Positions 954 to 19,675 of a stretch of DNA of 64,000 bases are shown here, one piece after another. Within the stretch, counting starts at the first letter, position 1. The number at the start of each line of letters is the position of its first letter. The notes under the pieces were generated by a model, which saw only the letters and a program-made list of their open reading frames with translations, had not been told where the DNA came from and searched no databases. The stretch lies in contig OX422193.1 of the NCBI GenBank assembly GCA_949130485.1, positions 6,368,871 through 6,432,870 on the forward strand, given 5' to 3'. Source of the DNA: Agelas oroides. Its lineage: Eukaryota; Porifera; Demospongiae; Agelasida; Agelasidae. The translations under genes and the position numbers were made by a program.

Positions 954-1052
954 CTTTGTTTGGTGATGCACATCTGCCTTTCCTGCAATCAGATGTTCCA
1001 ATACCGAAAGATGTCTCATTGCGCAGGCAATAACTAACGGCGTTGCACCATC
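954..1052 (-). CDS. Ankyrin exon 12 (last one in the window)
   Basis: 99 nt, phase 0/0. DGATPLVIACAMRHLSVL then EHLIAGKADVHHQTK. No further ankyrin exon is visible in 1-950; the gene is expected to continue leftward because no stop has been reached. Confidence 0.85.
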
Positions 1053-4000
1053 CTTGAGGAAAAAAACACTAGTATCATAATAGCGCAGTGATACAGTCCC
1101 TCACATGTTGCTTACAGTGTACAAACCATGAGGGAAAGTGGCAAACCACGAAAGAAAGTGGATAACGATGCACGACATCAATTGCTGACATACTGATAAA
1201 TGCTTATAAAAATGAAATATATTAGGTGGAGGTGTCATTGTAGTAATGAAGGATGTAGTTCATGCGATTTGAAGTTGACCAGAAAATAATCAACTCTGTG
1301 GTCACCAAAATTCTATCATAAACTACACAAACAAACATAAGCTACTATTGAGTAGTTATTTTCTAATGTTCTAAATCCAGATCACCCATAAATGTGTCAG
1401 GAGTCATTGCTTTAGATCATGATGGCAGACTCTCAACACTATGCATGTACCGTATTTCTTTAAATAGACACCGCCCTCGAATAGTCACCACCCTCGAATA
1501 GTAGCCGCACAATCAGGAGCTCTGAGCGAAATAAACACCGCCCTCAAATAGCAGCCGCGGCTACTATACGCGGCACACACACACGTATGTGAATCATTTC
1601 TGATGACAGTCAGCAGGCTAGCGCTAGGGCTGTTTGTGTTGTACGACTTGTTTCTACGGCTGACAGCAGGACTGAGAGGCTACACTTACTATTGAAAGCG
1701 TGTAACAGTCATCACTGTATCGCTCGTATGTACCTTATCCAGCCGTCGTTGATGTCAGTGAGCTTTCCAAAGAAATAAACGCCGCCCTCAAATAGTAGCC
1801 GCACAGAAATGTGCAGCGAAAAAAATAGTAGCCACAGCATCTGATTGAAGAAATACGTATTACGTTTTAGATCACAGCTGCAGCGTCTGATCGAAGAAAT
1901 ACGGTATTACGTATTAGATCACCTTTGTTTGATGGTTGATGCCTGCCTTTGCTGCAATCAGATATTGTACTACTGGAAGATGCCCATTCTGGCAGGCAAT
2001 ATACAGTGGTGTTGTACCATTCTGGAGGTAAAAAAAAACACTTCAGTGATATACAGCATGATATAAACATGTAACACAACAATACACAGTGACATAATCG
2101 CCATCCTGAACTCGCTATTTGGCACAGCATGTATAGTTTTGATGCTAGTATCTGGGGAAGAGATAGGAGATCCATAATTGTCTCATGGAAAGGAAGGTGA
2201 GTTCCTCAATGTACATCTCCCACCTTAGCTGAAGAACATACTATGAGGTGCATGACTCCAGATGCAAATGTCATCTCTTAGCTACAGCACTGAATAAAAC
2301 TTCCAAAGGAGGAGGATGGTTTAATAAACTTCAATGTTTTGCTCCCCCAGATATCCTCTAGCCTTACCAATGATAGCCATCCTCTTACCAAACTACAGTT
2401 ATGAAGAACTCACTACTGCTTGGACTTACTCAGAGATGAAATCATATCACATATTAAACAGTCTGCAGGCTAGCTGTGTGAGCATTTGTGGGAGCTGTTT
2501 GAGATGTAAAATGCTCTGGTTATACTGAAACCGCACTACCCAACCAGCTGTAGACTTCAATGTTATGTCACCTTTCCACTTTCAGTGGTGTGCATACTCT
2601 TGGTTGCCATGGCTATATACACTAACCAACAAACTGCAATATGTACTTGGTATAACCAACCTTCATCGGACGGTTAACATCTGCTTTGGCTGCAATCAGC
2701 TTTTCCACTGCTGGAAGGTACCCATTCTGGCAGGCAATGTACAGTGGTGAAGCACCATTCTGGAGAGAAAGAATACTTCAGGGTTACAACACAGATAAAC
2801 GCATGCATTCACACATAACAGGCCAACTGTGATGTGAGCTGGAGTATGGGGCTAGCAACTGAAAGTTTAACTTCTTACCATCATTGAGACCCTGAAAGTG
2901 AAAATCTCTATACAAACTTGTGCAGGAATTATTATAGCAGTGAAAAAAGGTGTATATCTAATGAGGTACGCGTATAAGCTTTAATCCCCAGCTTGTTATG
3001 TTGTAATGTTCTATCACAGTGTATAAATTAAGACCAAAAGCCAGAGATGGCCAATGTGTCATAGTCAGGAGCTACAGACACACGTCAGTTTAAGTAAACA
3101 AATTACTATCAGTGTCTGAATCAGACTTAGTTGTATGGCTCTACATGTTGGTCTTTGCAGCTTGTTGGCAGAGTTTTCCTCAACATTGCTACAGATATAT
3201 AGCTCTAAAGTGGTCCTAGGGGGGCGGTTTTAGTTGCCAAAAGTGGACCTGAGGGGCCACTTTTTGTTACGGCCACATTTAGCATGACATACCATTTAAC
3301 ACATCTATTAGGCCACCTCAGGCTATACACACACCTTATGTTCATGGTTAAGTGTTGGTGCGCTTAAAAGAGGTATAAACAGCTAAATTTTACTGAAGTT
3401 GCAACTGAGAGTTTATAAATAATGCAACTCAGAGTAGAATGTCACTGTCTACTGTGCTTTGTGTAATGTGCCCAGAAGAATAACCAGAAGGCTGGTAAAA
3501 AAGTGTAAGCAGTTTTGTGTGACTAGGCAGAGGAATATTAGCAACAAGTACTTTGATTTGAATAAACATTTCAACAGCTATTCAGCTATACTTGTGACAC
3601 AATACTGGAGAGCCAGTTTAAGTAAGCATTGAGAAAAGAGATGATCATTTGTGAAAAAGCTAAACATAGTGAGCAAGGTTTTTTGGCAGGTATTGATAAG
3701 TGGGAGTGAGAGAACCTGGTAAAGGAGTTTTCACAAAATGTCAACTTTCAAAATGTCAAGTCTCAAAATCCCAACTTCTCAGAACTTATAATTTAGATGA
3801 CATCCAAATGACACCAAACAAGAAAGTGTGCTTCAACTGTGATGGACTTTCAGGTTGGTAGACAGTAATGATTAGGAGACAAGAAGGTAGGGAAATTGTT
3901 GCTGACCTCCAGTGATGTGTATTCTTGACATTGCATGGCTATAAATATGGTTGACTTCACTTATGTCTTGTCTTGCATGGCACAGCTTTCTCCACCACTT

Positions 4001-7000
4001 CACTAATCTCCCAGAGGTTACTTATCCATGTTGCTGCTTTGCCTGTGCTTTACAGTCACAGATTTAGCAGGTAAGATCAGTTGCATATTCACTCACAAAT
4101 GATCAAGTGCATCAAACTTCATCAACATGCGACATTTTGGTCCTGATGAATCTTCAAGCAATTATAGTTCTTGAGCACAAAATATAAAGTTTATAGTGTT
4201 AGTTCAGGAACTGTAATTGCCTGAAGTAGGTAGGTCCCTCAGCACTGAAATGTTGCAAATTGATGAAATTTGATGCACTCAAGGATTGATTATGCACAAG
4301 CAAATATTTAACTGTCTACACACTCAATCCTTGGCCCAAAAGACAGCATTACATGCCTATAAATAACCTTTGTTTGATGGTTGACAGCTGCTTTGGCTGC
4401 AATCAGATGTTGTACTACAGCTATGTGCCTCTCCTGGCAGGCTATGACCAGTGGTGTGGTACCATCCTGGAGGTGAAGAGAATTCCAGAGCAGAGAAGAT
4501 TGAAAGCACGTAATTAGTGGTATACACACAAGCTAGTGATTAGTGAATGAAGTAACCATATAGACTGTGATAGTGGCCAACAGTAAGACGTAAAATCAAT
4601 TTGCCCTCATTTGTTTATGAAACTCACTAACGCAAGCAGGTAGGTTCACCTATGGCAGTAGAGAGAAAATGCATATTCCTACTGATAGGCATAGCTGAAT
4701 GCAGTCTTCATTACCTCAAGGTTACATTTATTTGTGAGTAGAAAATTTTGCGATTTTGAGTTTGTCATATTCAGTGAGTACTAATTTTAGCAATATCATC
4801 TAGATATAGAACTACAGGTTGGTGGGAGGGGGACGCTCGATTGCCAACTGCATTCCTGGTTCATAAAAAGGTATGCACATTGAGAAGGATTGGCAAGAAG
4901 AGCATTTACAGGGATGAACATGTCACAGCTGAACAGTGAGTAGAGCTGTTATTAGCATAATGTGTATTCTGGTTGTCTTGGAGCTGTACAAACTGCATAC
5001 TTTACCCAAAAATTGTAGAATGTACCCTCATTCACAGGCCTTTTCCAGCGTAATTTCGTACTGCACATGATGATTGCTGTGGAGGCCTTGAAATGAGGCT
5101 AGCAATACTGGTTATCCCCAATTTTGATCATGAATATTATTAGCAGGTAGAATTTTCAGCAATTATGACTGTGCTTGCTAAAATTGCTAAATTTAGTACC
5201 TGCAAATAATACCAAGTTAGTAAACTCTGTCAGTGTTGTATGCATTATAATATACATAAATAACCTTTGTTTGATGGTTGACATCTGCCTTTGCTGCAAT
5301 CAGATATTGTACTACTGGAAGATGCCCATTTTGGCAGGCAATATACAGTGGTGTTGTACCATTCTGGAGGTAAAAACACTTCAGTAATAAAACACACCCA
5401 CACATGGTTGCTATAAACATCATGAGAGCTATGTAGGGAAATTACACAGTCAAGACTCTCCAATGGTGAACCTCCCTTATTAAAACATTGTGTAAGTATC
5501 ATTATCGCATTGAGAAATGGTGCAGTCTGTGTGATTTTCTACCCAAGTTTCATTGGTTGAATTTCACCTTCAGCTCTGCCTTTTGTCAGCATCTCCCCTA
5601 ACATTTTAACAATGTGCACTGCATTAACCTTCGTTTGATGGTTGATGCCTGCCTTCACTGCAACCAGATGTTGCACTACTGGAAGATGCCCATTCTCACA
5701 GGCCATAACCAGTGGTGTTGCACCATCCTGGAGGTAAAGAACATTCCTAAGTTATCAAACAACAGTACACACCAACACAAGTTGATCACACATCACGAGA
5801 GCTGGGGGTAGATGCAACAACTTACATTTGCATGTATTGAAGAGTGTAGTTCATGTGAGGTAAACAAAGTGGTCTGATTGTACCAAGCAAATTTTCCCCC
5901 TTGTTAAAATAGTAACCCCCTGATCTGCTAGCTAATGTTCTACTATGTGCACATCAGTCACATATTATCTCACTACACCACACCAATACATGTTACAACC
6001 ACCATTCGGACATACAACCATACCAGTCACATATATATGTTCTTGAAGTGTCATCCCACACTGACCTGATTGCTGTGTAATATTTCCACTTCTATTGACA
6101 AACTAGCTTTGGGCAGTGGTCTTAGTATTCTAAAAATGAGATGTATTGCATACTGGGTAAATAACCTTCGCTTGATGGTTGACATCTGCCTTTGCTACAA
6201 TCAGCTGTTCCACTACTGGAAGATGCCCCTTTTGACAGGTAATGTGCAATGGTGTTTTCTCATCCTGGAGTTGAAGAGCATAGCAACATAACAAACACCC
6301 ACACACGCCACATCATGAGAGCTAGAGAAGGGGCTAGCTACATATATTCAAGGATCACAATACTTCTTCATTTACGAATTTGAACGTAAATTTGTGATCT
6401 CCCACTATATTGAAATATGCCAGTCATAGCTTATCTCAGCACTCTTTCTTATGCATCATTGCATTGTCAAGCTAGACTAAGACTTTTTCATGGTGCAACT
6501 ACGGGTGTATTCCTAATGTGGGAGTATAAATTCTGAACAGAATTTTATTCTATGCTACACCTTGAATTGTCCAGAGGGATATAGTGTTCATACTCATCAT
6601 ACTTCTGCCAGCATATGTATAATGTGGTAAAAAATCATCTACAAAATTAACATTACCCACTTCATTTACAGTCCATTGCTATGATCACCAACTCCATTGG
6701 CTTTCATCGTAGTAACGGAGTCTCACATTATATATTAGGTAAATGACCTTTGTTTGATGGTTAACATCTGCCTTTGCTGCAATCAGTTGTTCCACTATTG
6801 GAAGATCACCCTGTTGGCAGGCAATATACAGTGGTGTTGTACCATCCTAGAGGTGAAGAGTATATCTTCAGTAGTAGTCCCATAACAGCAAAACAAAGCA
6901 CACATACGCATCACATCATAATGAGTGGGGTAGCTGCATGATCACTGAACTGATCACAGTTCAACTTCATTTCACTGTGACTCCCATTCATCACTCCTCA

Positions 7001-10000
7001 AGAATGTACCATCTCCATCCTTGAAGCAGCTACACATGGTTTCAGTTGATATATAAAGTAACCAATCAATTATCGGACACCCCACATTATCGGACGGCTG
7101 CATAGCACGAATGGGAGTAACAACGGCCCTTGTTTCTGATCCAGTAGGTAGGTTGATGCAACTGCTACGTGCACCCCAAATTTGAGCTTTATAGACCAGT
7201 GAATGTGGACGCTATGCCCCAATAAAGGGCGGTGTCCGATGGTCGCGACCATCGGACAAAACTACCGATTCATGGACGACGAAGTCCCATAAAGCGAGGG
7301 AGGCAGCACTGTCCACAAAACTTGGTTTTCAGCTACAACTATCCTTACTCTACGTAACCTCCAATTATCAGCGATTCTGTTGTTGAACGGAGACAAGTGT
7401 CGCGTGAAGAAGCGAATACGTTCAACCCATCAATCATCGGACGAGAATGAGCATGCGTGTATGCACATAATGAAAAGGCTTTTGGAAGGTAAGAATCCTT
7501 CAAAAGTAGGTGAATAGTCTGACATATGTACGTACCAGTAGCTAGTGGTAAGTAGGCTGTATACGAAGTGTGGAACGTGTGATAAGCTGTGTCATGCTGC
7601 AGAGAAGTATGCTATACTACGTTCCATGCACATTTCCAATATACAGGCTACTTATCACACGTTCCACACTTCGTATACAGCCTACTTACCACTAGCTACT
7701 GGTACATACATATGTCAGACTATTCACCTACTTTTGAAGGATTCTTACCTTCCAAAAGCCTTTTCATTATGTGCATACACGCATGCTCATTCTCGTCCGA
7801 TGATTGATGGGTTGAACCTGTGCGTTTCTTCAAGCGACACTTCTCTCCGTTCAACAACAGAATCGCTGATAATTGGAGGTTAGGTAGAGTAAGGATAGCT
7901 GCAGCTGAAAACCAAGTTTGGTGGACAGTACTGCCTCCCTCGCTTTATAGGACTTCGTCGTCCGTGGATCGGTAGTTTCGTCCGATGGTCGCGACCATCG
8001 GACACCGCCCTTTATTGGGGCATAGCGTCCACATTCACTGATCTATAAAGCTCAAATTTGGGGTGCACGTAGCAGTTGCATCAACCTACCTACTGGATCA
8101 AAAACAAGGGCCGTTGTTACTCCCATTCGTGCTATGCAGCCGTCCGATAATGTGGGGTGTCCGATAATTGATTGGTTACTCTACTATAGTGCATGGGCGG
8201 ATCAAAGGTGCCACATGGCATCATATATGGCATGTAGACCCCTGACTGTTGCGATCACAGAGAGAATATTGCTGAGTCAGGGGTGTATATTTCGACTGCA
8301 GGGAGTATTATTGCTGAGTCAGGGGTGTATATATTGGCTGAGTGAGTGTATATAGCAGCCGACAGTTAATTCGCTTGAAATTGGCAAATATCACAACTGC
8401 AGCACAGACAAATAAAAAACTTTTTTGTTTTACAATGGAAGGGCCAATTCTTCCTGGGCCTCACTAGAAGAACTACTGCCAGCACTATATAGCGCTCCTG
8501 TACTGTACTTGGTACTAGCACAACAGCCAAAGCGTCACACAAATTTTCGAGTTTTATTTGTGCAGCTAATACAGTGCTTACTTGGTGTGTGGAACCACGC
8601 ACGGTTGGACAGACTCTACTGCTTCCAGGCAGCTAGCCACTATCCTGACGTAGTCTCATTCCCAGACCGAAGTTTGCAGTTAGATTAACCTTGGCTCGGG
8701 GTATATCTACTACAAACTTCCTCTGACCTCGGTCTTGGGTAGTAGTAAATGTTTTAAACTACTAAACTTTACCTTAAGGTGCAACTGAGCTATGCCTTAG
8801 GTCAAATGTCCATGAAGGTATTATTAGTGCCCATATATCACATACTCGATTACCAAGGTGTGAATCAAATCAAGGAGAGTGGAGGTGTTTATAAACATCT
8901 GGCCACCTCATCACAAAATACACACCTTACACCCCATGTATGCAAGATTGGATTCACACGATGTACAGGCCTGGGGAAGCAATGGATATCCAGTTTGAGT
9001 GCATATTTGTCAGTTCCATGGTGCACCTCCCCCATGAATGAAACCAACAAGCAAGGGAAAGAGGTACTAACAGCAAAACCTTCAAACAGTCCCAATGGCG
9101 TTTGTTCCTCATGTTTTCATGTTTGACTGTTTCCTCACAAACATGCTCACACTGCATCACATTGAAGCAAATGGAGTGTTATAGAATGAGCCATTGTTAC
9201 TGCACATGCAGTTATCAACTTAGCATTGAACAGAGTGACAGTTAAATAGTTGTTGCATTCTTTCGGCTACACAAGCAATGCATGGTGGTGCACTTTCAGA
9301 CTCAGTAGCCTGGGAGGTGATGGCTTGACAACAGAAATCCTTTACTTGTCATTATTGCAATGTAATGAGGCACAAAAGACTAGTTTGGTTCTCCACTCCT
9401 TCCGCTGAAGGATCTGAAAACCAAGCTACTAAAAAACTTGGGTCTACAGCTAACTGCCAGCTTATGCTATGCAAGTGGCAACACAGGAATGTTAAATACT
9501 GTTGGTTGATATGGTGAGACTATATTGTTAAGAGAATGCAAGCAGATAAACTGTAAATTGATAGTACTGCACTTTGTGATGCTACTCTCTAGGTATGGTG
9601 TGGGAACACAAGTTATACTTTGTGTTGGGAGAAACATGCTGCCTTGCATTCAGGATCTGTACCACTGTTTACAGGCTCCCTTTCATTGCAGACAATAGTT
9701 GATTCATGGCAGCTCATTTTTTAGCTTATGTTAATGGTTATGTCAAGGAAGTTCAAGTTTGGCCCTTCCCTTCAACTTTGAGGGTAAAGAGTGAGCTATG
9801 GTAAACTAGCACTAAACTCACAGGTCACTCGGTACATCTTAAGTTGTCATGCAGACTTAATTGTTACATAATGGATTTACAAATAACCTTTGTTTGACGG
9901 TTGACATCTGCTTTTGCTGCAATCAGATGTTGTACTACAGTTATATGCCCCTCCTGGCTGGCAATATATAGCGGTGTTCCACCAGTCTGGAGGTGAAGAA

Positions 10001-13000
10001 CATTTCAGTGCTAGTACTATAACATAGCAATGTACACCAGGGTTGTAGTAATTGAATTCTGGCATGGTTTTATTAATTACAATTACATGAGCCTGAATCG
10101 TCAATTAATACCCATTACAATTACCAAGGTTGCTTACAAGTAATGATTACAATTACAGAAAAATGACAAAATTACAAATTACATTGTTTAATTACAGGTC
10201 AAAGTGGTTGTGATTTGGTTTTAATTAAATGTGCTGACAAAGCATGCTCTTGCCACATGTCTTGAACAGGATGTAGTCAGCTGAGTTTGCCAGTATTGTA
10301 ATTGAACTTGTAATTGGTGTTTTACTATCCCCTGCAAACAATTACATGCCTTTTGTTCAGCATTACAAATTACATCAGTTGTTGTGAAGTGAAATTACAA
10401 TTACAAATTACTGTGTTTGAAAACCTGTAATCATTACGTAGTCATTACATTTGGTTTTTCAATTACTACAACCCTGATGTACACCAACACATTTTGCTAT
10501 ACACATTATGTGAAACCAGAAGTTCATGAGATAACAGGAATTCAGCTTAACTTGAAAAACTGTGTATACTAAATGTAATGAGGGCAGAATTTCATCCCCA
10601 TCTATGCTTTGGGCCAATCATTGTGCAGGATACTATTAGTGTCTATATGCCTCATACATCAATATCTTATCTATATGTGGGTGCTTGGAGTTCAAGCCAC
10701 TAAACTGTGGCTACTTCATTTATTTCTACACCCACAACCTCCCAAACAATATCTCTATGTTTGTGTCTGGGAATTTGTGTTTGAAAGTGTTGTGGAGGTG
10801 AGGGTTAGGATTTCAGCAATGCTCACCTTGTCCTGCAAGTCTGGTGTAGCTCCTGCTCGAAGGAGCATCTCTACAATCCCAACATACCCATCCTGACTGG
10901 CATAATAGAGTGGGCTATATCCATCCTAGGGGCATGTGGGTGTGTGCATTTGATGTTCCTCCTGTTAAGTGCAGTTAAAATGGTCCTTAGAGTGTAAAAT
11001 TATCGAGTGTGATAGGATAAACAAAATTATGTATTAATTTTGTTCATCCTTCGTACACACCAAGGGGTACCTAACTTCATTCTCAGGCTCTCTCATAAAC
11101 GGGGGTAGAGCCTGGGAACTAGGCTAGGGTGCATCAAGCCATCAAAGGCAGCAAGAGGACAGGCAACTTCCTACAGTGCATGAACAGATGGCGTATGGTT
11201 GAGATCAGTCTAGTACATGTAACAAACCCACATCTGATAAGCCTATGCAGTAAACCCACAATCAACATGTCTGATGTGGTCTTACTACATATGGGCTTAC
11301 TACGTACACATCTTGCATGTGTTGAATGGCACATGTTATGTAGCATTGTAACTTTGCATTATTGAGCTATGAAACTACTACTATTAAAAGTCAGTTTTAG
11401 AGAATCAATCATTCTTGACCAACTGGAATAGGAAAGAGGAGTTCACAATGGAAGCAGCACATACCAACACGTTTCATTACTCAATTCCACATTCCACTGT
11501 GTTCTCCAGTTCTCACCTTGTTCTGTACATCAGGCTTTGCCCCAGTTTGCAGGAGCTGCTCTACCACCTTCTGGTGGCCATTGAAGCTGGCTTGCCCCAG
11601 TGATGTCTCACCATCCTGTGTACCATAAAATCAGGATAGTAGGCACCCATAAAAATGAGCACCTACTTGTATTACACAAAAGTGTCACCCATACAAAATT
11701 AGGCACCCCACATAAAAAGGTACCCGTTACAACATTAAAATTGCCGATTCAGCTTTTTGAATGCATAAACGGCTAACTTTCCCAAACATCATAAATTGTT
11801 AGTTAGCTATCAACACAGGATATAACCAACATGTATATGTAGCTAAGGCAACTTGATAAAACATATCCAAGAATTGGCAGAAACCTCTATGAGATTCATT
11901 AGTTCCAAGCGCTGTACTTTGGTAAAAGAGACTTAGCAAAGATCAATCGCCAACTGCATCTCTAGTTCTAGAAAAGCTACAAAAAAAAAGCAACAGGGGA
12001 CAGGAATTAGCATAAAGAGAAACTCAAGGCCTAAAATATATCACAGCTAATATGTTCACATACAACTTCACGCTACCATAATAGTATATGCATTGATAAC
12101 AACCATGAATTTAAGTTGATAGAGGAGGGGGATCTAGGAGCATCAATCACTAGGGGCGTCTGGAAGCAACCCCCCCATCCTCTGGAAAATGTTTGATTTT
12201 TACATTCTGATCCGAAAGCCATTTTTGAGTCAAATTTATGCTACTAAAAAGTCAGCTGACTCTCACTTAGTTGTCACAACAGTGAACTAGCACTTACAAT
12301 TTGAACTGAACATCATATACTACCTGTGTTCAAAGTCTTTGCAGTTGTTTCATACTAATGGAAGTCTAGTCAGAAATTTGAGGTTCCCCCTTTCTGATTT
12401 TCCCTTTATGAAGTCCTGCAATAACTTTAGAATCAGGCAGATGGGTACTGAACACGCTAATTTTATACACACACACCAAGTATGCTTCACATACATGTAC
12501 TTGTAAATGCCATTGAGTGTCACAGAGGGATGCTGCTCTTCCAATGGGGAAAAAAGGCTGCCTTTGGACCTTGTCTGTCTACCAGTGCTGTTTAAGTAAA
12601 TACCACAAAACTGGAGGCTGGAGTCAGCCTACCAAATGATCTCTCAAGACAAGAAATGATTGTTGTACTCCTGGCCAGCACTAAACTTGTACCTACGTAC
12701 TTCATGATAATAAAGACAGTAACTTAAACACAAAGAGCAAAGGTCAAAGTTCAACAATGCATATGCACAACATTTGAAGACACATCTGGTTTCAGTCCCC
12801 CCTTCCCCAAATTTGCTGTGGTTGCTTTGTGTTTCCATATATAGAGAGAGGTAGTACTACTAACTCAACTATCTATGGTGTTTTAAACCACAATACTACA
12901 TATCTAACCATGATGTCTAAACTATTGCCTAAATTATTGCTGTTACAATACCAAACAAGCCCTAACACCACATATACAAATAACTTACAATACGATTTTG

Positions 13001-15257
13001 TGTCAAGATGCTTATGCAACAGAAAAGGCAAACTATTGGTTGTAATGTCCTGTTCAGTAACAACTCTCATGCTCCCATGACCAAGACACAGATGTTTAGC
13101 AAGACAGAGCTGTTTAGTAAACACAAACTCCTAATGCACACGTTTAATGGATACAAACTCCCCAGAGCATAGATTACAAACTAAACAAATATTTAATAAT
13201 AGATTATTGCATATATACTAGTGCTGAAACAATATATCGATATATAGCGATATTGCAATATTTAGTTCTGCAATACACAGCAATACACTTGGTTCCGAGT
13301 ATCGATATATTGCGTGTCAATTATTTATTGCACTATTTCGCTATTAGCTATACAAGTGTAAGTTCTGGAGACGGGTTGCGCATGCGTAATTAATTGATTG
13401 ACCGCAAGTCCTCGTGTGTTCAGGCTAAAGTCATGGAAGGTCTTATCATCCCGAATGCTACAGCTAAGAGCCCAGTTTGGGTTCATTTGGGTTTCTAGGG
13501 AATGCAGATGGAACTGTCGTGCCAAAGAAGTGTGTATCTGCAGCCAAGAAATGCCGTATAAGAACAGCACTTCAAATTTGTTTTCTCACTTGGAACGCCA
13601 TCACCAAGATATTGCAATAAAGCAGTATATTGCAATACTTAAAGGTACAATATGCAATATTAAAAATGAGCGTATTGTTTCAGCACTAATATATACACAC
13701 GTAGTCACGTACATATACTTGGTTCCTGGGAGTTAGTTGCAGTGTTCTAGGGAGTATATATCATTCTAATTAGCTCTCAGCAGCATATCTGCATATGTCA
13801 GCGGTTCATTCATGCAACTAAAATAACAAACCATTAGTCATAACATTTTCCTTCTCACAGTAAACGTATGTGTGTGTGTGTATATATATATTAATGAATT
13901 TACTAGCTACCATCGGGCAACTAACTGGCTATTATAGACACTCAGAACTTAGATACTCTATGTATGCTGTAGAGCACTTACAAATGTAGCCATGTTAACA
14001 TTGACACCGCTCATGAGAAGGTTGCAGACAGCCAACAATTGGCCATACTGACATGCTTCCAACAGTTTCAGCTCCTACAGGTCAGCAGAAGGGAAAGTTA
14101 CACGTATTGTAAAAATGTTAGGCTGAAAAAAAAAGTATATATGCTGGTTACAAGTCTATGTAACCAGCTTCAATAATGATGCTAAGACTACTACATTAAA
14201 GTCCTATCGATCGGCAGACCATAGCATTGAAAGTACTATGTACACAGCCTTTTCTCATTCTCTTTTAAATGACTTTTTACACATATGCACACGGGAACAA
14301 ATACTTACAGGAGAGTAAGGGTTGCTCCAATCCATGGCCTCTTCCAATGCTGGTGCGCTACCACCCACTTTCCAGGAATCCAAAATAGTAGATGGGAATC
14401 TTGGCTTTCGTGGTAGTGAGTGACAACGCCTAATAGTAGTGCTTGTCACTGAACAGGTAGGCTTTGACAGTTGCTTTGGAGTACAAAGTCGAGAGCTAGA
14501 TTGTGCCCACCTTACTGAAAAGATAGATTGCTTTGAACTATACACTAAAGAGCTAGACAGTGACCTCCGCTTTTCACTTGGCAGTGAACTGGATTGTGAC
14601 AATCGCTTTCGGCTTTCCGATGGAGATGTCACTGGTGAAAGGCATCTTGGGCTAGCTAGTGGTGAATAGTTAACTGAACTTGATGTGGATGAGAGAGGCT
14701 TCTTTGGATGATTGCAAGACCTGTCCAGTGATTGTGTGAGTTTCTGCTCATCAGTGTCAAACGGATCTATATTCTCTGATTCAGTTTTCAAGCAAAACGG
14801 GGAAGTTAATGGCTGGGAAGGAATCAGTGGGACACTACAATATCTCTGCAACATGGCACGCTTTGGACTTTTCAAATCTGCTTGCCTTGCAATGCTGTGT
14901 AAAGGAGCTATGAGGGAAGATGACAGAAGTTGATCACATCAAGTGTTTGTCTTATTTGAGTAATCAAACTTGCAAGAGGTGAATACATACATTGGTGTGT
15001 TATGAACAATGTGTCGGCATTATTAGGATTACTGCTTGATATCAACTTAATTGTTCCCGCTTGACATACCTGTGCTCTTTCCTTGGTCAAGGAATGTCTG
15101 AATACTGCCCATTGGGCTGATGGATTTGCAATCAAGGGAAAGGGTTTTGTTTAGCTCTATATGTTTATATCCTGCTTCCTGCTGCTTGTGTGCCTCTGTC
15201 TCCATGGCAACAGTGGTACTCTCCCCCTGGTCACAGGTTGATGGGTCTCCACTTGTG
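954..15257 (-). CDS. Ankyrin-repeat protein, multi-exon, 3' end beyond left edge
   Basis: Exons in transcript order: 15257-15070, 14907-14309, 14074-13982, 11615-11517, 10925-10827, 9986-9888, 6846-6748, 6264-6166, 5727-5629, 5363-5265, 4466-4368, 2759-2661, 2021-1923, 1052-954. All junction phases agree. The likely start is ATG at 15205-15203 in a strong context (GCCATGG), although the frame stays open to an acceptor at 15258. The protein begins with about 60 polar residues, then a Ser/Pro/Arg-rich stretch of about 200 residues, then ankyrin repeats of the TPLxIACQxGHLPVV type. No membrane segment or other domain was seen. Ankyrin repeats bind proteins; the partner is unknown. No stop is reached, so more repeats or a C-terminal domain lie to the left. 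The gene model is inference from sequence; the ankyrin call is secure, the function is not. Confidence 0.82.
1448..1905. mobile_element. Dispersed repeat family A, copy 1 (intronic)
   Basis: Starts CCGTATTTCTTTAAATAGAC and ends with the inverted version ...GAAGAAATACGTATTACG, with repeated CCGCCCTCGAATAGTAGCCGC motifs near both ends. The interior (AGGCTAGCGCTAG..., CTGACAGCAGGACTGAGAG) is closely matched by a second copy at about 44335-44690. No ORF; MITE-like. It lies in the ankyrin gene, within the intron just downstream of the 1923-2021 exon. Confidence 0.75.
1923..2021 (-). CDS. Ankyrin exon 11
   Basis: 99 nt, phase 0/0. NGTTPLYIACQNGHLPVV then QYLIAAKAGINHQTK. The donor is AAG|GTGATC, and the flanking sequence on that side is the tail of a dispersed repeat (1448-1905), so this splice site borders inserted DNA. 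Confidence 0.85.
2661..2759 (-). CDS. Ankyrin exon 10
   Basis: 99 nt, phase 0/0. NGASPLYIACQNGYLPAV then EKLIAAKADVNRPMK. Donor AAG|GTTGGT. Confidence 0.85.
3000..4300. other. Intron of the ankyrin gene, no feature
   Basis: Low-complexity, AT-rich intron with no open frame of note. At 3210-3265 there is a short partial inverted motif (AAGTGGTCC... / ...GGGGCCACTTTTTG). Nothing else seen. Confidence 0.5.
4368..4466 (-). CDS. Ankyrin exon 9
   Basis: 99 nt, phase 0/0. DGTTPLVIACQERHIAVV then QHLIAAKAAVNHQTK. Confidence 0.87.
5265..5363 (-). CDS. Ankyrin exon 8
   Basis: 99 nt, phase 0/0. NGTTPLYIACQNGHLPVV then QYLIAAKADVNHQTK. Differs from the 1923-2021 exon at only a few positions. Confidence 0.88.
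5629..5727 (-). CDS. Ankyrin exon 7
   Basis: 99 nt, phase 0/0. DGATPLVMACENGHLPVV then QHLVAVKAGINHQTK. The intron between this exon and the next (5364-5628) is only 265 nt. Confidence 0.87.
6166..6264 (-). CDS. Ankyrin exon 6
   Basis: 99 nt, phase 0/0. DEKTPLHITCQKGHLPVV then EQLIVAKADVNHQAK. Confidence 0.85.
6748..6846 (-). CDS. Ankyrin exon 5
   Basis: 99 nt, phase 0/0. DGTTPLYIACQQGDLPIV then EQLIAAKADVNHQTK. Donor AAG|GTCATT. Confidence 0.88.
7057..8180. mobile_element. 1.1-kb near-perfect palindrome (foldback element)
   Basis: Two arms of about 530 nt (7057-7590 and 7649-8180) are nearly exact reverse complements around a spacer of about 58 nt. The tips read GTAACCAATCAATTATCGG outward-in and contain two ATTATCGGAC motifs. 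The flanks resemble TA-rich target DNA (left GATATATAAAG, right CTCTACTATAG), but the target-site duplication is not clear. The short ORFs inside are mirror images with no known domain. It lies in the large intron between ankyrin exons 4 and 5. A transcript would fold into a long hairpin. Confidence 0.9.
8181..9887. other. Intron of the ankyrin gene
   Basis: No coding exon recognised. 8270-8345 has two copies of GCTGAGTCAGGGGTGTATAT. The rest is unremarkable. Confidence 0.45.
9888..9986 (-). CDS. Ankyrin exon 4 (first of the near-identical set)
   Basis: 99 nt, phase 0/0. TGGTPLYIASQEGHITVV then QHLIAAKADVNRQTK. The donor is the weak-looking AAG|GTTATT, which most copies of this exon share. 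Confidence 0.85.
10038..10476. mobile_element. Non-autonomous hAT-like element with 8-bp TSD
   Basis: Terminal inverted repeats CAGGGTTGTAGTAATTG / CAATTACTACAACCCTG. It is flanked by an exact 8-bp duplication ATGTACAC (10030-10037 and 10477-10484), typical of hAT elements. 439 bp, very AT-rich inside with repeated TAATTACAATTAC, no ORF. It lies between ankyrin exons 3 and 4. Confidence 0.92.
10827..10925 (-). CDS. Ankyrin exon 3
   Basis: 99 nt, phase 0/0, donor GTGAGC. One repeat: DGYSPLYYASQDGYVGIV, then EMLLRAGATPDLQDK. It is diverged from the nine 'NHQTK' exons that follow. Confidence 0.85.
11517..11615 (-). CDS. Ankyrin exon 2
   Basis: 99 nt, phase 0/0, donor GTGAGA. One diverged ankyrin repeat: DGETSLGQASFNGHQKVV, then EQLLQTGAKPDVQNK. 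Confidence 0.85.
11650..13210. other. Intron of the ankyrin gene
   Basis: No exon seen. Contains a short C-run (12168-12177) and the inverted fragment 11941-11981 of the repeat also found at 472-521. Otherwise nothing. Confidence 0.45.
13219..13688 (+). mobile_element. Decayed hAT element with BED-finger remnant
   Basis: Inverted ends TAGTGCTGAAACAATA / TATTGTTTCAGCACTA with an exact 8-bp TSD ATATATAC (13211-13218, 13689-13696). Inside, one frame gives AKSPVWVHLGF then a stop, and another gives ...VCICSQEMPYKNSTSNLFSH (about 13530-13600) followed by LERHH. The K-S-P-V-W start and the C...TSNLxxHLxxHH pattern are the BED zinc finger at the N-terminus of hAT transposases. A frameshift and a stop separate the halves and no catalytic domain follows, so it is an internally deleted, dead copy. 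Confidence 0.88.
13982..14074 (-). CDS. Ankyrin exon 1 (N-terminal cap repeat)
   Basis: 93 nt (31 residues), phase 0 at both ends, acceptor ...CCTGTAG and donor GTAAGT. It reads ELKLLEACQYGQLLAVCNLL followed by MSGVNVNMATF, the usual divergent first helix pair of an ankyrin stack. Confidence 0.8.
14309..14907 (-). CDS. Ankyrin gene, Ser-rich linker exon
   Basis: 599 nt, acceptor ...CCCTCATAG, donor CTCCT|GTAAGT, phase 1 in and phase 0 out. It encodes about 200 residues rich in Ser, Arg and Pro, with runs such as SESRKRLSQSSSLPSEKRR and several RRxxS/SP sites that look like phosphorylation sites. No known domain was recognised; it is probably disordered. It is the longest uninterrupted coding stretch of this gene. 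Confidence 0.8.
15070..15257 (-). CDS. Ankyrin gene, first coding exon
   Basis: 188 nt; acceptor at ...ACCCAG, donor CACAG|GTATGT. It reads through METEAHKQQEAGYKH and ends in FLDQGKST with one base left, which joins the next exon as Ala. The ATG at 15205 fits a Kozak start. Upstream of it the frame is open, so 15206-15257 may be 5' UTR or coding. An inverted-repeat element begins only 15 nt upstream of the acceptor. Confidence 0.7.
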
Positions 15258-15272
15258 CTGGGTAAATGAAAG

Positions 15273-15703
15273 CTATATCACTGCAAAAACAAGTTGGTTA
15301 TTTTAGCCACAGAGTGGTTACCCTGTGTTGCAGACAAACTGAAAAAAAAACAGTGGTTATGAGAGCTTTACTTTGGGTAATTGCATAAGGCAACCCAAGA
15401 GGCAGCTTCCCAGTGCATCTTACAACCACAATATACACTGAAAACCCTCATAACATCCTTGATTCCCTCATCTGGTTACATGCAAGTTCCTTACTGCAAC
15501 TTTGAAGTGCATTTGTAATGACTCCTTCACAGATGTTCTGAGGGTTGTCAGTGTATTGTGGTTGTAAGATGAACTGGGCATGCACCTGCCTCTTATGCAA
15601 ATAGTCTTCCATACCTAAGCAAACCACTGTCTCTTCAGCTTGTCTGCAACCATGGTAACCACCCTGAAGTTAAAACAACCAACTTGTTTTTGCAGTGATA
15701 TAG
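15273..15703. mobile_element. 431-bp inverted-repeat MITE
   Basis: Ends CTATATCACTGCAAAAACAA / TTGTTTTTGCAGTGATATAG with a probable TA target. A second inverted pair lies inside (CATCTTACAACCACAATA near 15417 and TATTGTGGTTGTAAGATG near 15553), so most of the element folds back. No ORF. It lies between the death-domain gene and the first coding exon of the ankyrin gene, and its end is 15 nt from that exon's acceptor. Confidence 0.88.
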
Positions 15704-15911
15704 AATATAATTTGTTCAGCTTGGTGCTTGATGTCCCAAGTAATCAAGCTTGCAGCTGGTTAGTACACTGGTTTCATGATTCCTGATGCATGTTATAAGG
15801 TTTTAGAACAAAACTGGTTGCCTAACAAGATGTTATAAAGTTTTAGAACAGAAACGTTTTACCTAATAAGGTTTAGAAAGAATGCTTCACCCACTTCAGT
15901 CACTCATGATT

Positions 15912-16587: not shown

Positions 16588-17537
16588 TTATGAATTTTCC
16601 CACTTGAAAATAACTTCTAAATTCTTGCCTACCTCATCTTCAAAATATATATGAGTCATAACTCTCAGCTCTTTCACTCTAATGTGCATTAGCTCCTGTT
16701 TCTGCTCAATGCTAATGGTAATCACACCAACTAGCCAACTTGGCATTTTGAATACAACTGTGATACATCCATCCATCACATTACATAATTGCAAAGTGTG
16801 CTTTGAAAGTCCAAGAATTTCTGATACAGATGACTGGAACTCTACAACATGATTCAAATTGTACTTGTTGAAATCATCATCCACTTTCAGAATGAGAGAT
16901 ATAAAGCCTTTAGAATTGGGGTTAGAAAACATGCTTTTCGGACATTCAAAAATCCGGTGTCTACAAAAGTTTTGAAATTGAGATTTGTATGTATTCAGTC
17001 TTTCATCATCTCCAGTCCCCTCATGAAAAAGGAAGTCCTCCCTCAAGGCTTCAATGATGCTGAAACTGAACCAAGAATAGTACCCTTTTAGGATGAAGAA
17101 AAGAGACCCAAAATCTCTAACAACTTCAATTTTGTCTCTCTCCTGCAGTAGCAGAGGCTTGTCTTTGTACACTGATTCCTTGTGAATGACACCCAGGGTG
17201 AGAACATAGTTCTTAACCTCATCAAGGGGTACCAGTTTCTCTTTCAGCATGGAAATTGTGTTGCATTCAAGTGAAGCAAACCTTTGCACAATTTTTCGAG
17301 ATGCTTTCAACAGCTTCCACTTAACCTGTCTAAACTCAGATGTACTTGGCTTCTTCGGAAACAAGTAGGGAAACTCAGTGTACTCCCAGGAAGAGGGGCA
17401 ACCTTTTTCCAGATATGTGGTAAGATCACATTCCCCACAGCCACAGCTAAATCTACAGTCAGAATCACTTTCATCCCCTGACAGACCAAGGTCACAATCT
17501 TCTGGGCATGCTTCACTGAGTTGTTTTGTGTTTGCAC
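16588..17537 (-). CDS. Poriferan Cys-rich plus C-terminal module, last exon
   Basis: About 316 residues to the stop. It has an acidic spacer (SGDESDSDCRF), a Cys cluster CGCGECDLTTYLEKGCPSSW and the FPYLF motif, then a helical segment ending in LTLGV. A second part follows: LKGYYSWFSFSIIEALR, NFCRHRIFECP, and a final beta-rich part with LQLCNVMDGCITVVFKMPSW. I recognise this order (GCG.C....+.E.GCP, FPYL, YFSFFN..I.E, A.RRIFECP, L.LC.V..GC+.+.F..PS) from a large family of sponge proteins that carry it after death or other signalling domains. Function unknown. Confidence 0.82.
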
Positions 17538-19675
17538 CTAGAGGAATAAATAAGGTATCTAGTGACCTTGTCACAAATCGCTACTCTTCATTCCCTCTGT
17601 AGCAGCCTAGGATGAGGCCACTGCTGTAACTCTAAATGCAAGAGACACCACAACAGTAGTTTCATTCCAATAACGAAAACTGAAGACAAGAGGGTATCAA
17701 TGGTAGCTGAGAAAGAGTTGTAACTTGAGGATTCCACATCAATAGGCTAACTACTGGATTATGTCACCTTTTCCAGATGTTCTAGTTCCTTGTATATGCA
17801 TCACATGGCTACTTAGTGACATTGAATTTGATGTGCTGTGGATTTGATCTAAGAGATATAAGTAACACAGGGCCGTAGCAAGCACCTGGGAGCTGGTCCG
17901 ACCATGGATGTGGTTAAGCCACACCCTAATTAATTAAATGACGTCACACCCTTTAGTTCCACACTAGTGCACGCTTAGCCATGAAGTGAAGCCATTGCCA
18001 CTGCATGCCACTGGCTAAACCAAGCAGATTGGAAGGCATGGGACTCTGCTTTCTTTTCATAATGTGCACTTGGGAAACTTATAGTTTGCTGGATGATGTG
18101 GCTTTTCGGGGATGTCATCTTGTGCTGTGGAATCGGTGATACTGCCAGTTGCCTTAGGCATGGTGTGGTACGAGCACGAGTTATGCTCAGTGCAGCTGCA
18201 CAAGTGTGAATATTCATTATCTGTGCACAGTTCCAAAACTGAACATAAAAACTGGTCCAGCCAAAACGGTCCAGCCAAAACGGACCAGCCGACTGCTTGC
18301 TACGGCCATGTAGCTAACCGATACAAAGTTGTCTAAGCATTGCATAAGCTCATTTCCAGGCTTTTGTTGACCTCCAAATTGGAGCTAGGGGAAGGGCTAA
18401 AAATGGGTCATAAACATCTACCAAGACACCTCCTGATACATGTAAATTCTCATACTAAACGGGTAACAAGGCATGACCAGAAAGTTGTCTAGCAAGTCCT
18501 TAAAATACTAGACATTAGTAGAAATAGGGTCAAATGTCATCCATGGGTTAGTAAACCACTGATGTCATTTTGGCCACCACCAATATAATCAGGGCGAGCC
18601 TGAGCAAGCCCCACACTGGTGTAGTCTATGCGAAAATGTGATCTGACCAACAGACCGACCAACCTGCTGTGTCTGTCTCAGTCACATGCATGTCAAAGAC
18701 ACTATGTAACAGTGTGCACAGCCTAATATGCATGGTTTCATGCAGCCATGCCATAATTAACTTTGTCAATAGCCAGTGCACATAGCGCGTGCATGAAAAC
18801 TAACTCATGCAGTCTAAGAAAGAACAATGAATGAAACAAATAAGCTTGCTAGGGTGCATGTATGCTCAGACAACGGAGATTCTTGTCCTAGCTTTGTGGT
18901 CACATGTGATACTTCCCATACTTCCCGTAAGTTTGCTACTACTTTGTACATAAACTGCGGATCAACACTGAACTTCACTCAGGCTCAACCCTCGATGATC
19001 AATCATCTCTCTAGTCATACACTCATAAAGAGAACATTGTATACAGTGTTCTCAGTGTATGACTAACCTCTTCAACATCTATATATCAGGTATACCTGAT
19101 ATATAGACATGCATTGAAGAGGTTTGATAGCACCTAGAGCTGGTGCTTTATAAAAGAAATTCCTACATGTGGATTGATTTCCACATACATACAAGTGTAC
19201 AAATCTTGCAAACATCACTTTTCTCTAACCCCTCAACCACTATACTGGCATGCATATACAAGAATGCATGCAGACAAATCACGCATACCTTCAGTGGTGG
19301 TAGTGGAAATGATATACTTTCTTCGTATCTTATCAGCAACTGCATGTGCTTCCATCAGACACAATGCTTCAGCAACAGCTTCCCAGGTAGGGGTAGTGGT
19401 GTTGTCTAGCCAGCAACCTAGCATCTCGGTCCTGCAGCGTTTGTCATCACCACGATGGTTACTCTCAATTTCACTGAGCTGGTAGCGCTTCAAATCTAGA
19501 TTCACGCCGAGTGAATACCAATCCAAGACCGATTTCAACTCATTCGTGAGCGCTTTCAGAGTGAGCGTGGCGGGAATTGCTGGCGACAAAAACATTTAAA
19601 AAAACTGAATAACAAAAAATACAAAATAAAAAACGTCTAAAACAGTGCTCTAATACTAAACTTACAATTTGCCAT
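16588..19675 (-). CDS. Death-domain protein with poriferan Cys-rich C-terminal module
   Basis: Exons: 19675-19666 (ATG GCA AAT T), 19579-19318 (death domain), then a large last exon ending with TAA at 16590-16588. The join between exons 1 and 2 is in phase (T|CA). The end of exon 2 (phase 2) fits the last exon only if that starts at 17566 (GACAAG|G); the better-looking acceptor at 17538 (CCTCTAG|GT) would need a small extra exon. Death domains mediate homotypic binding in apoptosis or immune signalling. The C-terminal module is known to me from many sponge proteins but has no assigned biochemical role. No transmembrane segment was seen. Confidence 0.8.
17600..19300. other. Intron of the death-domain gene, mostly unique
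   Basis: No further exon could be placed. 18590-18650 carries GGGCGAGCCTGAGCAAGCCC and neighbours that recur at 39466, 49590-49740 and 50265-50300 (dispersed repeat). 19072-19124 is a perfect-looking hairpin around CTATATATCAGGTATACC with longer imperfect arms (ACCTCTTCAA...TTGAAGAGGT). Confidence 0.5.
19318..19579 (-). CDS. Death-domain exon
   Basis: 262 nt. It encodes PATLTLKALTNELKSVLDWY, then LGVNLDLKRYQLSEIESNH, RGDDKRCRTEMLGCWLDN and TTTPTWEAVAEALCLMEAHA. The order L..L....W..LG..L.....L..IE......D.....ML..WL....PTW..+..AL is the six-helix death-domain pattern as seen in sponge proteins. Acceptor ...TCGCCAG, donor AAGAAA|GTATAT. Confidence 0.88.
19666..19675 (-). CDS. Death-domain gene, start exon
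   Basis: Only 10 coding nt: ATGGCAAATT followed by the donor GTAAGT. The leftover T pairs with CA at the start of exon 2 to give Ser, so the protein begins MANSIPATLTLKAL. Such a tiny start exon is plausible because it is supported by phase and by the strong donor. Confidence 0.65.

Follow-up and report, generated by a model that had tools for sequence, protein, structure and literature searches.

The 64,000-nucleotide (nt) stretch of the sponge Agelas oroides analyzed here, C11:6368871-6432870 (contig OX422193.1) and called the window throughout, carries a series of single-repeat ankyrin exons on its minus strand. We conclude that local exon duplication very likely lengthened the ankyrin solenoid of a Death-domain/ankyrin protein akin to a published sponge family. 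The locus is very probably the repeat-coding part of a sponge gene for an intracellular protein of this kind, and the lengthened part is likely the protein's binding arm. C numbers denote contigs of the same assembly (259 Mb, 141 contigs), and positions without a contig are those of the window.

Array exons and their relatives

Nine ankyrin exons lie between positions 954 and 9986, numbered here in transcription order, and the series goes on outside the window with a tenth.

E1 TGGTPLYIASQEGHITVVQHLIAAKADVNRQTK, 9888..9986, minus strand, AG/GT borders, 99 nt, phase 0
E2, 6748..6846, minus strand, AG/GT borders, 99 nt, phase 0
E3, 6166..6264, minus strand, AG/GT borders, 99 nt, phase 0
E4, 5629..5727, minus strand, AG/GT borders, 99 nt, phase 0
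E5, 5265..5363, minus strand, AG/GT borders, 99 nt, phase 0
E6, 4368..4466, minus strand, AG/GT borders, 99 nt, phase 0
E7, 2661..2759, minus strand, AG/GT borders, 99 nt, phase 0
E8, 1923..2021, minus strand, closest to E5 (95/99 nt)
E9, 954..1052, minus strand, last array exon inside the window
E10, C11:6368403-6368501, outside the window, ending 370 nt before its first base

Each of the nine is exactly 99 nt long, in phase 0 and encodes one 33-residue repeat. AG/GT borders are present in 9/9, internal stops in 0/9, and both ends fall on codon borders, which bears out what a sequence-only reading of this DNA had described. Pfam finds nine Ank stretches in the nine joined exons (E value 7.8e-68). 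All nine places were recovered independently by a mechanical repeat search, as 120-nt copies; a motif-limited scan alone recovered 7/9, with E3 and E7 outside that set. As homologous neighbors with common borders and phase, these exons form a tandem exon-duplication array. The same reading overstated their likeness in calling them near-identical, as pairwise DNA identity ranges from 62 to 95 of 99 nt (63-96%, mean 77%, 36 pairs), and the donor it described as usual, GTTATT, occurs in only 4/9, the others being GTCATT, GTTAAT, GTTGGT, GTGATC, and GTTGAT.

To place these exons, 36 array exons from the window gene and related loci were compared. For 24 of the 36 the nearest relative lies within the same gene, a value that none of 10,000 label permutations reached, and the array-exon tree requires 11 label changes, where shuffled labels average 24. 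E10 groups weakly with the single C9 exon (93/51) and, at 8.52 Mb, with the last array exon (82/23); a founder position for E10 would be consistent with this grouping but is not shown by it.

A closer view of the process is offered by a paralog at C11:8.525 Mb, where an 816-bp unit of exon plus intron is present in 2.4 copies. Its two array exons are identical, 13 of the 717 intron sites differ, and the unit adjoins a Death exon 80% identical to that of the window. This repeat is direct evidence of exon-plus-intron duplication. Each copy also holds a repeat that lacks an AG border and looks degenerate, which suggests decay.

Across the assembly, at least 45 exons of the array type were found in about 14 clusters. 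The counts are lower bounds and clusters were assigned manually, with Death exons as landmarks; nine of the 45 exons (at 7.93-7.95, 8.00, 8.06-8.09, and 8.90 Mb) are known as search matches with unchecked borders.

Window gene: 10 array exons, the highest among the clusters found
C1:31.44 Mb: at least 4
C11 7.87-7.89 Mb: at least 5
C11 7.93-7.95 Mb: at least 4
C11 8.00 Mb: at least 1
C11 8.06-8.09 Mb: at least 3
C11 8.52 Mb: at least 4
C11 8.54-8.55 Mb: at least 5
C11 8.90 Mb: at least 1
C11 9.206 Mb: at least 2
C11 9.227 Mb: at least 1
C11 9.244 Mb: at least 1
C11 9.26 Mb: at least 3
C9:4.33 Mb: at least 1

Copy number thus differs between related genes, with 10 in the window gene versus 1-5 (lower bounds) in the 13 other clusters. 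Because borders and phase are common, exons cluster by gene, copy number differs, and a paralog holds the 816-bp unit, exon duplication is supported as the probable origin of the array.

The introns of the window carry a fainter record. A 17-nt intron motif, CACATCATGAGAGCTAG, has one exact copy and two copies with two mismatches in the window, all of them in the introns immediately preceding E3, E4, and E5, and three such matches were reached in 0/100 shuffles. Averaged without gaps, flank identity is down to background roughly 30 nt upstream of the acceptor and 10 nt downstream of the donor. In comparisons of the 300-nt stretches that follow the array donors, none outscores the shuffles (24 versus 26). 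One upstream comparison, E4 versus E5, gave the top score of the set (72) and was rejected as an artefact, since the 400-nt stretches share 36 nt; with this overlap excluded, the upstream flank test was redone on whole introns. In these trimmed comparisons 9/36 pairs beat the best of 40 shuffles, where about one is expected, at low scores. The earlier statement that the introns also match therefore holds for the motif before E3, E4, and E5, while similarity away from the splice sites is faint; likewise, the duplication of whole exon-plus-intron units that it proposed is plain in the C11:8.525 Mb paralog, whereas the window preserves only a faint trace of it.

Two repeats of another kind lie among these introns. 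In the intron between E1 and E2, an inverted repeat at 7054-8183 has 533-nt arms, 96% complementary and 64 nt apart, and is probably a fold-back transposon. The stretch 1448-1906, bounded by terminal inverted repeats that match imperfectly (27 nt, 78% complementary) and ending about 16 nt past the E8 donor, is probably a small DNA transposon.

The surrounding gene and its family

Further candidate exons lie upstream of E1 on the same strand, and one lies beyond E10.

10827..10925, minus strand, ankyrin exon with one repeat DGYSPLYYASQDGYVGIVEMLLRAGATPDLQDK, not of the array type, 99 nt, phase 0
11517..11615, minus strand, ankyrin exon with one repeat DGETSLGQASFNGHQKVVEQLLQTGAKPDVQNK, not of the array type, 99 nt, phase 0
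13982..14074, minus strand, likely first ankyrin exon, degenerate ELKLLEACQYGQLLAVCNLLMSGVNVNMATF, 93 nt, AG/GT borders, putative exon
14258..14938, minus strand, open frame with a putative serine-rich exon (50 Ser in 227 residues)
16591..17580, minus strand, open frame of 330 residues whose match to the TRADD-like N-terminal domain (TRADD-N) is sub-threshold
19289..19579, minus strand, Death-domain exon with putative borders (cag/gtatgc)
19666..19675, minus strand, possible start exon ATGGCAAATT, followed by a GTAAGT donor and in frame with the Death exon
C11:6367587-6367685, outside the window after E10, 99-nt ankyrin exon of another type

The Pfam Death match, in frame 19314-19595, is well above threshold (E value 4.1e-8, 33.7 bits, cut-off 22.6), placing a Death-like domain at the N terminus. 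The TRADD-N match of the 330-residue frame falls below its cut-off (E value 0.13, 12.5 bits versus 23.7), and a Pfam scan of the serine-rich frame was without match. Frames resembling the degenerate exon are found in paralogs at C11:8528539-8528817 and C1:31453845-31454105. Beyond the array side of the window, two further repeat matches lack an AG at the expected border. Because order, strand, and phase agree and the order is similar in paralogs, we infer that the Death, TRADD-N-like, serine-rich, ankyrin, and array exons would form one transcript; on that model the ankyrin repeats are C-terminal.

The Death frame is 80% identical to that at C11:8533119, yet the next long frame (16591-17580) aligns with paralog frames at only 17-21%, a contrast that may reflect an exchange of exons, very rapid divergence, or exons that are unrelated. 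This 17-21% identity comes from aligning the 330-residue frame with its positional counterparts in five paralog loci. PDB searches with this frame and with its alignment returned nothing convincing (best E values 0.94 and 0.062), and one of six paralog frames scanned with Pfam has a sub-threshold DED match (E value 0.13).

Searching the assembly with the Death frame gave 150 scored matches out of 763 candidates; 26 of these 150, including the window's own, have at least 50% identity, and 18/26 lie on C11. In the fetched loci the array exons are flanked on both sides by ankyrin exons of other types, each with a splice-site signature of its own, and in some fetched clusters these types have multiplied too. 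Two close Death exons, at C15:5.849 Mb and C11:8.813 Mb, showed no ankyrin exon nearby, within fetched stretches of 20 kb and 10 kb, respectively. At C11:8536635-8547975, several ankyrin exon cassettes follow one another with no Death exon seen between them, and one array exon is frameshifted; these cassettes are perhaps partial gene duplications. Outside the assembly, eight stretches on viral contigs fit a search pattern and none is a relative, and prokaryote genomes gave general ankyrin proteins with no more than 56% identity (best 80 of 95 matches).

The assembly carries a sponge-type mitochondrial contig, although several organisms in it are possible. This contig, C141 (22,436 nt), has a cox1 with TGA codons, 23 tRNA genes, and an atp9-like frame found with a custom pattern; atp9 together with a complete set of tRNA genes in animal mitochondrial DNA we take to point to demosponges. 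Its cox1 is split by a stretch at 14659-15891 with a long frame that appears LAGLIDADG-like. A second cox1-like match, at C107:16176-16808, lacks TGA codons and comes perhaps from a symbiont or contaminant, so the assembly is possibly not pure.

Selection, splicing and alternative explanations

The ratio of nonsynonymous to synonymous differences per site (pN/pS), pooled, is 0.47 over nine as well as over ten array exons. Buried positions, less variable than almost all random position sets, have a ratio of 0.26, and four surface positions (1, 3, 11, and 12) have one of 0.90. Five position sets were used in the surface test. The six binding-surface positions of designed ankyrin repeat proteins give a marginal p of about 0.07; a nine-position set and a helix-surface set each give 0.04, and a four-position subset gives 0.002 but was cut from the six-position set. 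Random substitution would leave all nine exons free of stops with a probability of 0.03. The variation of surface positions suggested by the sequence-only reading is thus seen in part: buried positions are conserved and some surface sites are the most variable, while pN/pS stays below 1 and the six-position test is marginal. The pattern agrees with a scaffold under constraint whose surface is relaxed or slightly diversified, and is not proof of positive selection.

The ten array donors are weak, with a purine at +3 in 2/10 and G at +5 in 1/10, compared with 48/48 and 25/48 at the donors of other AG/GT-bordered ankyrin matches in the fetched loci. For the 36 fetched array exons the corresponding counts are 20 and 13. 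Every array exon is symmetric, so the frame survives whichever of them are included, and weak donors combined with symmetric exons would permit skipping without frame loss. These features, along with the very recent exon duplication in the paralog and some surface positions that vary most, would suit a variable receptor, whereby alternative splicing or copy-number change between individuals yields many solenoid lengths or surfaces from one locus. We regard this as improbable: window positions 5240-6300 have no second near-identical copy in the assembly, most exon copies are old, judging from their mean identity, and pN/pS is below 1. That the array serves as a splicing or copy-number dial, by which Death-domain receptors would carry solenoids whose length or surface differs between cells or individuals, seems a long shot; if true, it would be a sponge counterpart of the diversified receptors used in immunity or self-recognition.

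Resemblance within a gene could also stem from gene conversion among its exons, if the array is old, its exon set is mostly fixed, and few exons have been gained or lost on balance. The non-adjacent E5 and E8 match at 95/99 nt, and the match of the surrounding DNA stops after about 137 nt, which speaks for conversion, and the clustering of exons by gene agrees with it as well. Differing exon numbers between clusters and the tandem exon-plus-intron duplication visible in the paralog argue the other way, leaving this account possible, if doubtful. A decaying pseudogene segment would explain the non-consensus donors and the apparently degenerate array exons of paralogs; with 9/9 exons open, in frame, and AG/GT-bordered and with buried positions conserved, it is very unlikely.

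Several points weigh against growth of the solenoid by exon duplication within a Death/ankyrin gene as we describe it. Intron homology within the window's own array is faint. The array-exon tree is weakly resolved, with 5/32 inner branches starred, and the window's ten array exons do not form one clade (3 label changes, bootstrap range 3-4). The gene model is predicted from genome sequence. As to the TRADD-N-like region, none of the six scanned paralog frames has TRADD-N, tblastn with the 330-residue frame found no significant match in the fetched paralog loci, and a single-sequence fold of this frame is uninformative, with a predicted local distance difference test score (pLDDT) of 33.

Exon duplication with lengthening of the solenoid remains our preferred explanation. 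Exon copies would arise by tandem duplication of an exon and some intron, through unequal crossing over or replication error; introns would then diverge and gain transposons, and exons would be held by purifying selection. Default splicing would join all exons, so that some 13 or more ankyrin repeats form one continuous solenoid, which would bind a ligand, with the Death domain and perhaps the TRADD-N-like region recruiting partners.

Known systems and significance

The best PDB sequence matches are Ankyrin-1, Ankyrin-2, and designed ankyrin repeat proteins, with which the window gene shares 33-residue repeats and, as predicted, a long uninterrupted solenoid. In ankyrins the Death domain is C-terminal, whereas that of the window gene is N-terminal. 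ZU5 and UPA had no match in the Pfam-scanned frames, the far 3' end of the gene lying outside the scan.

A closer counterpart is known from the sponge Amphimedon. The passages of PMC8195603 that describe its family report 357 TRADD-N proteins of the NCOA6 clade. Most of the architectures combine TRADD-N with between one and three Death-like domains and a C terminus that varies; ankyrin repeats are among the commonest variable C termini, and Death-like/TRADD-N/ankyrin proteins are greatly expanded. The window gene is similar in its N-terminal Death domain, its ankyrin C terminus, and its many related loci. It differs in that TRADD-N is sub-threshold and in its exon array, a feature absent from those passages.

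According to the relevant part of PMC3995336, exons often cover whole repeat units, and one-repeat exons most likely spread by a process like exon shuffling (citing Street et al. 2006 and Bjorklund et al. 2006). The window gene resembles these repeat proteins, with one repeat per exon, uniform phase, and copy-number change by whole exons; unlike those treated there, its family has distinguishable exon types, and clusters differ in the copies of one type. Duplication within ankyrin arrays in proteins appears in a portion of PMC7314423. Given these two sources, as far as those portions go, the kind of phenomenon is already known and fairly ordinary, and the window gene is a well-preserved case. 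Literature searches aimed at the array showed no description of it among the papers listed, a weak negative. Dscam-type arrays, in the excerpts of PMC4835542 and PMC9013439, share tandem homologous exons with it. Unlike them, the window exons are symmetric and encode stackable repeats, and this symmetry does not enforce mutual exclusion; joint inclusion is therefore the simplest expectation.

This case presents solenoid growth exon by exon in a single gene family, where one genome holds both older and younger exon copies and one duplication is recent enough for the copied unit to be visible. Sponge Death/ankyrin genes are candidate innate immune or self-recognition proteins, and this candidate role makes variation of the array, in splicing or between individuals, a testable question.

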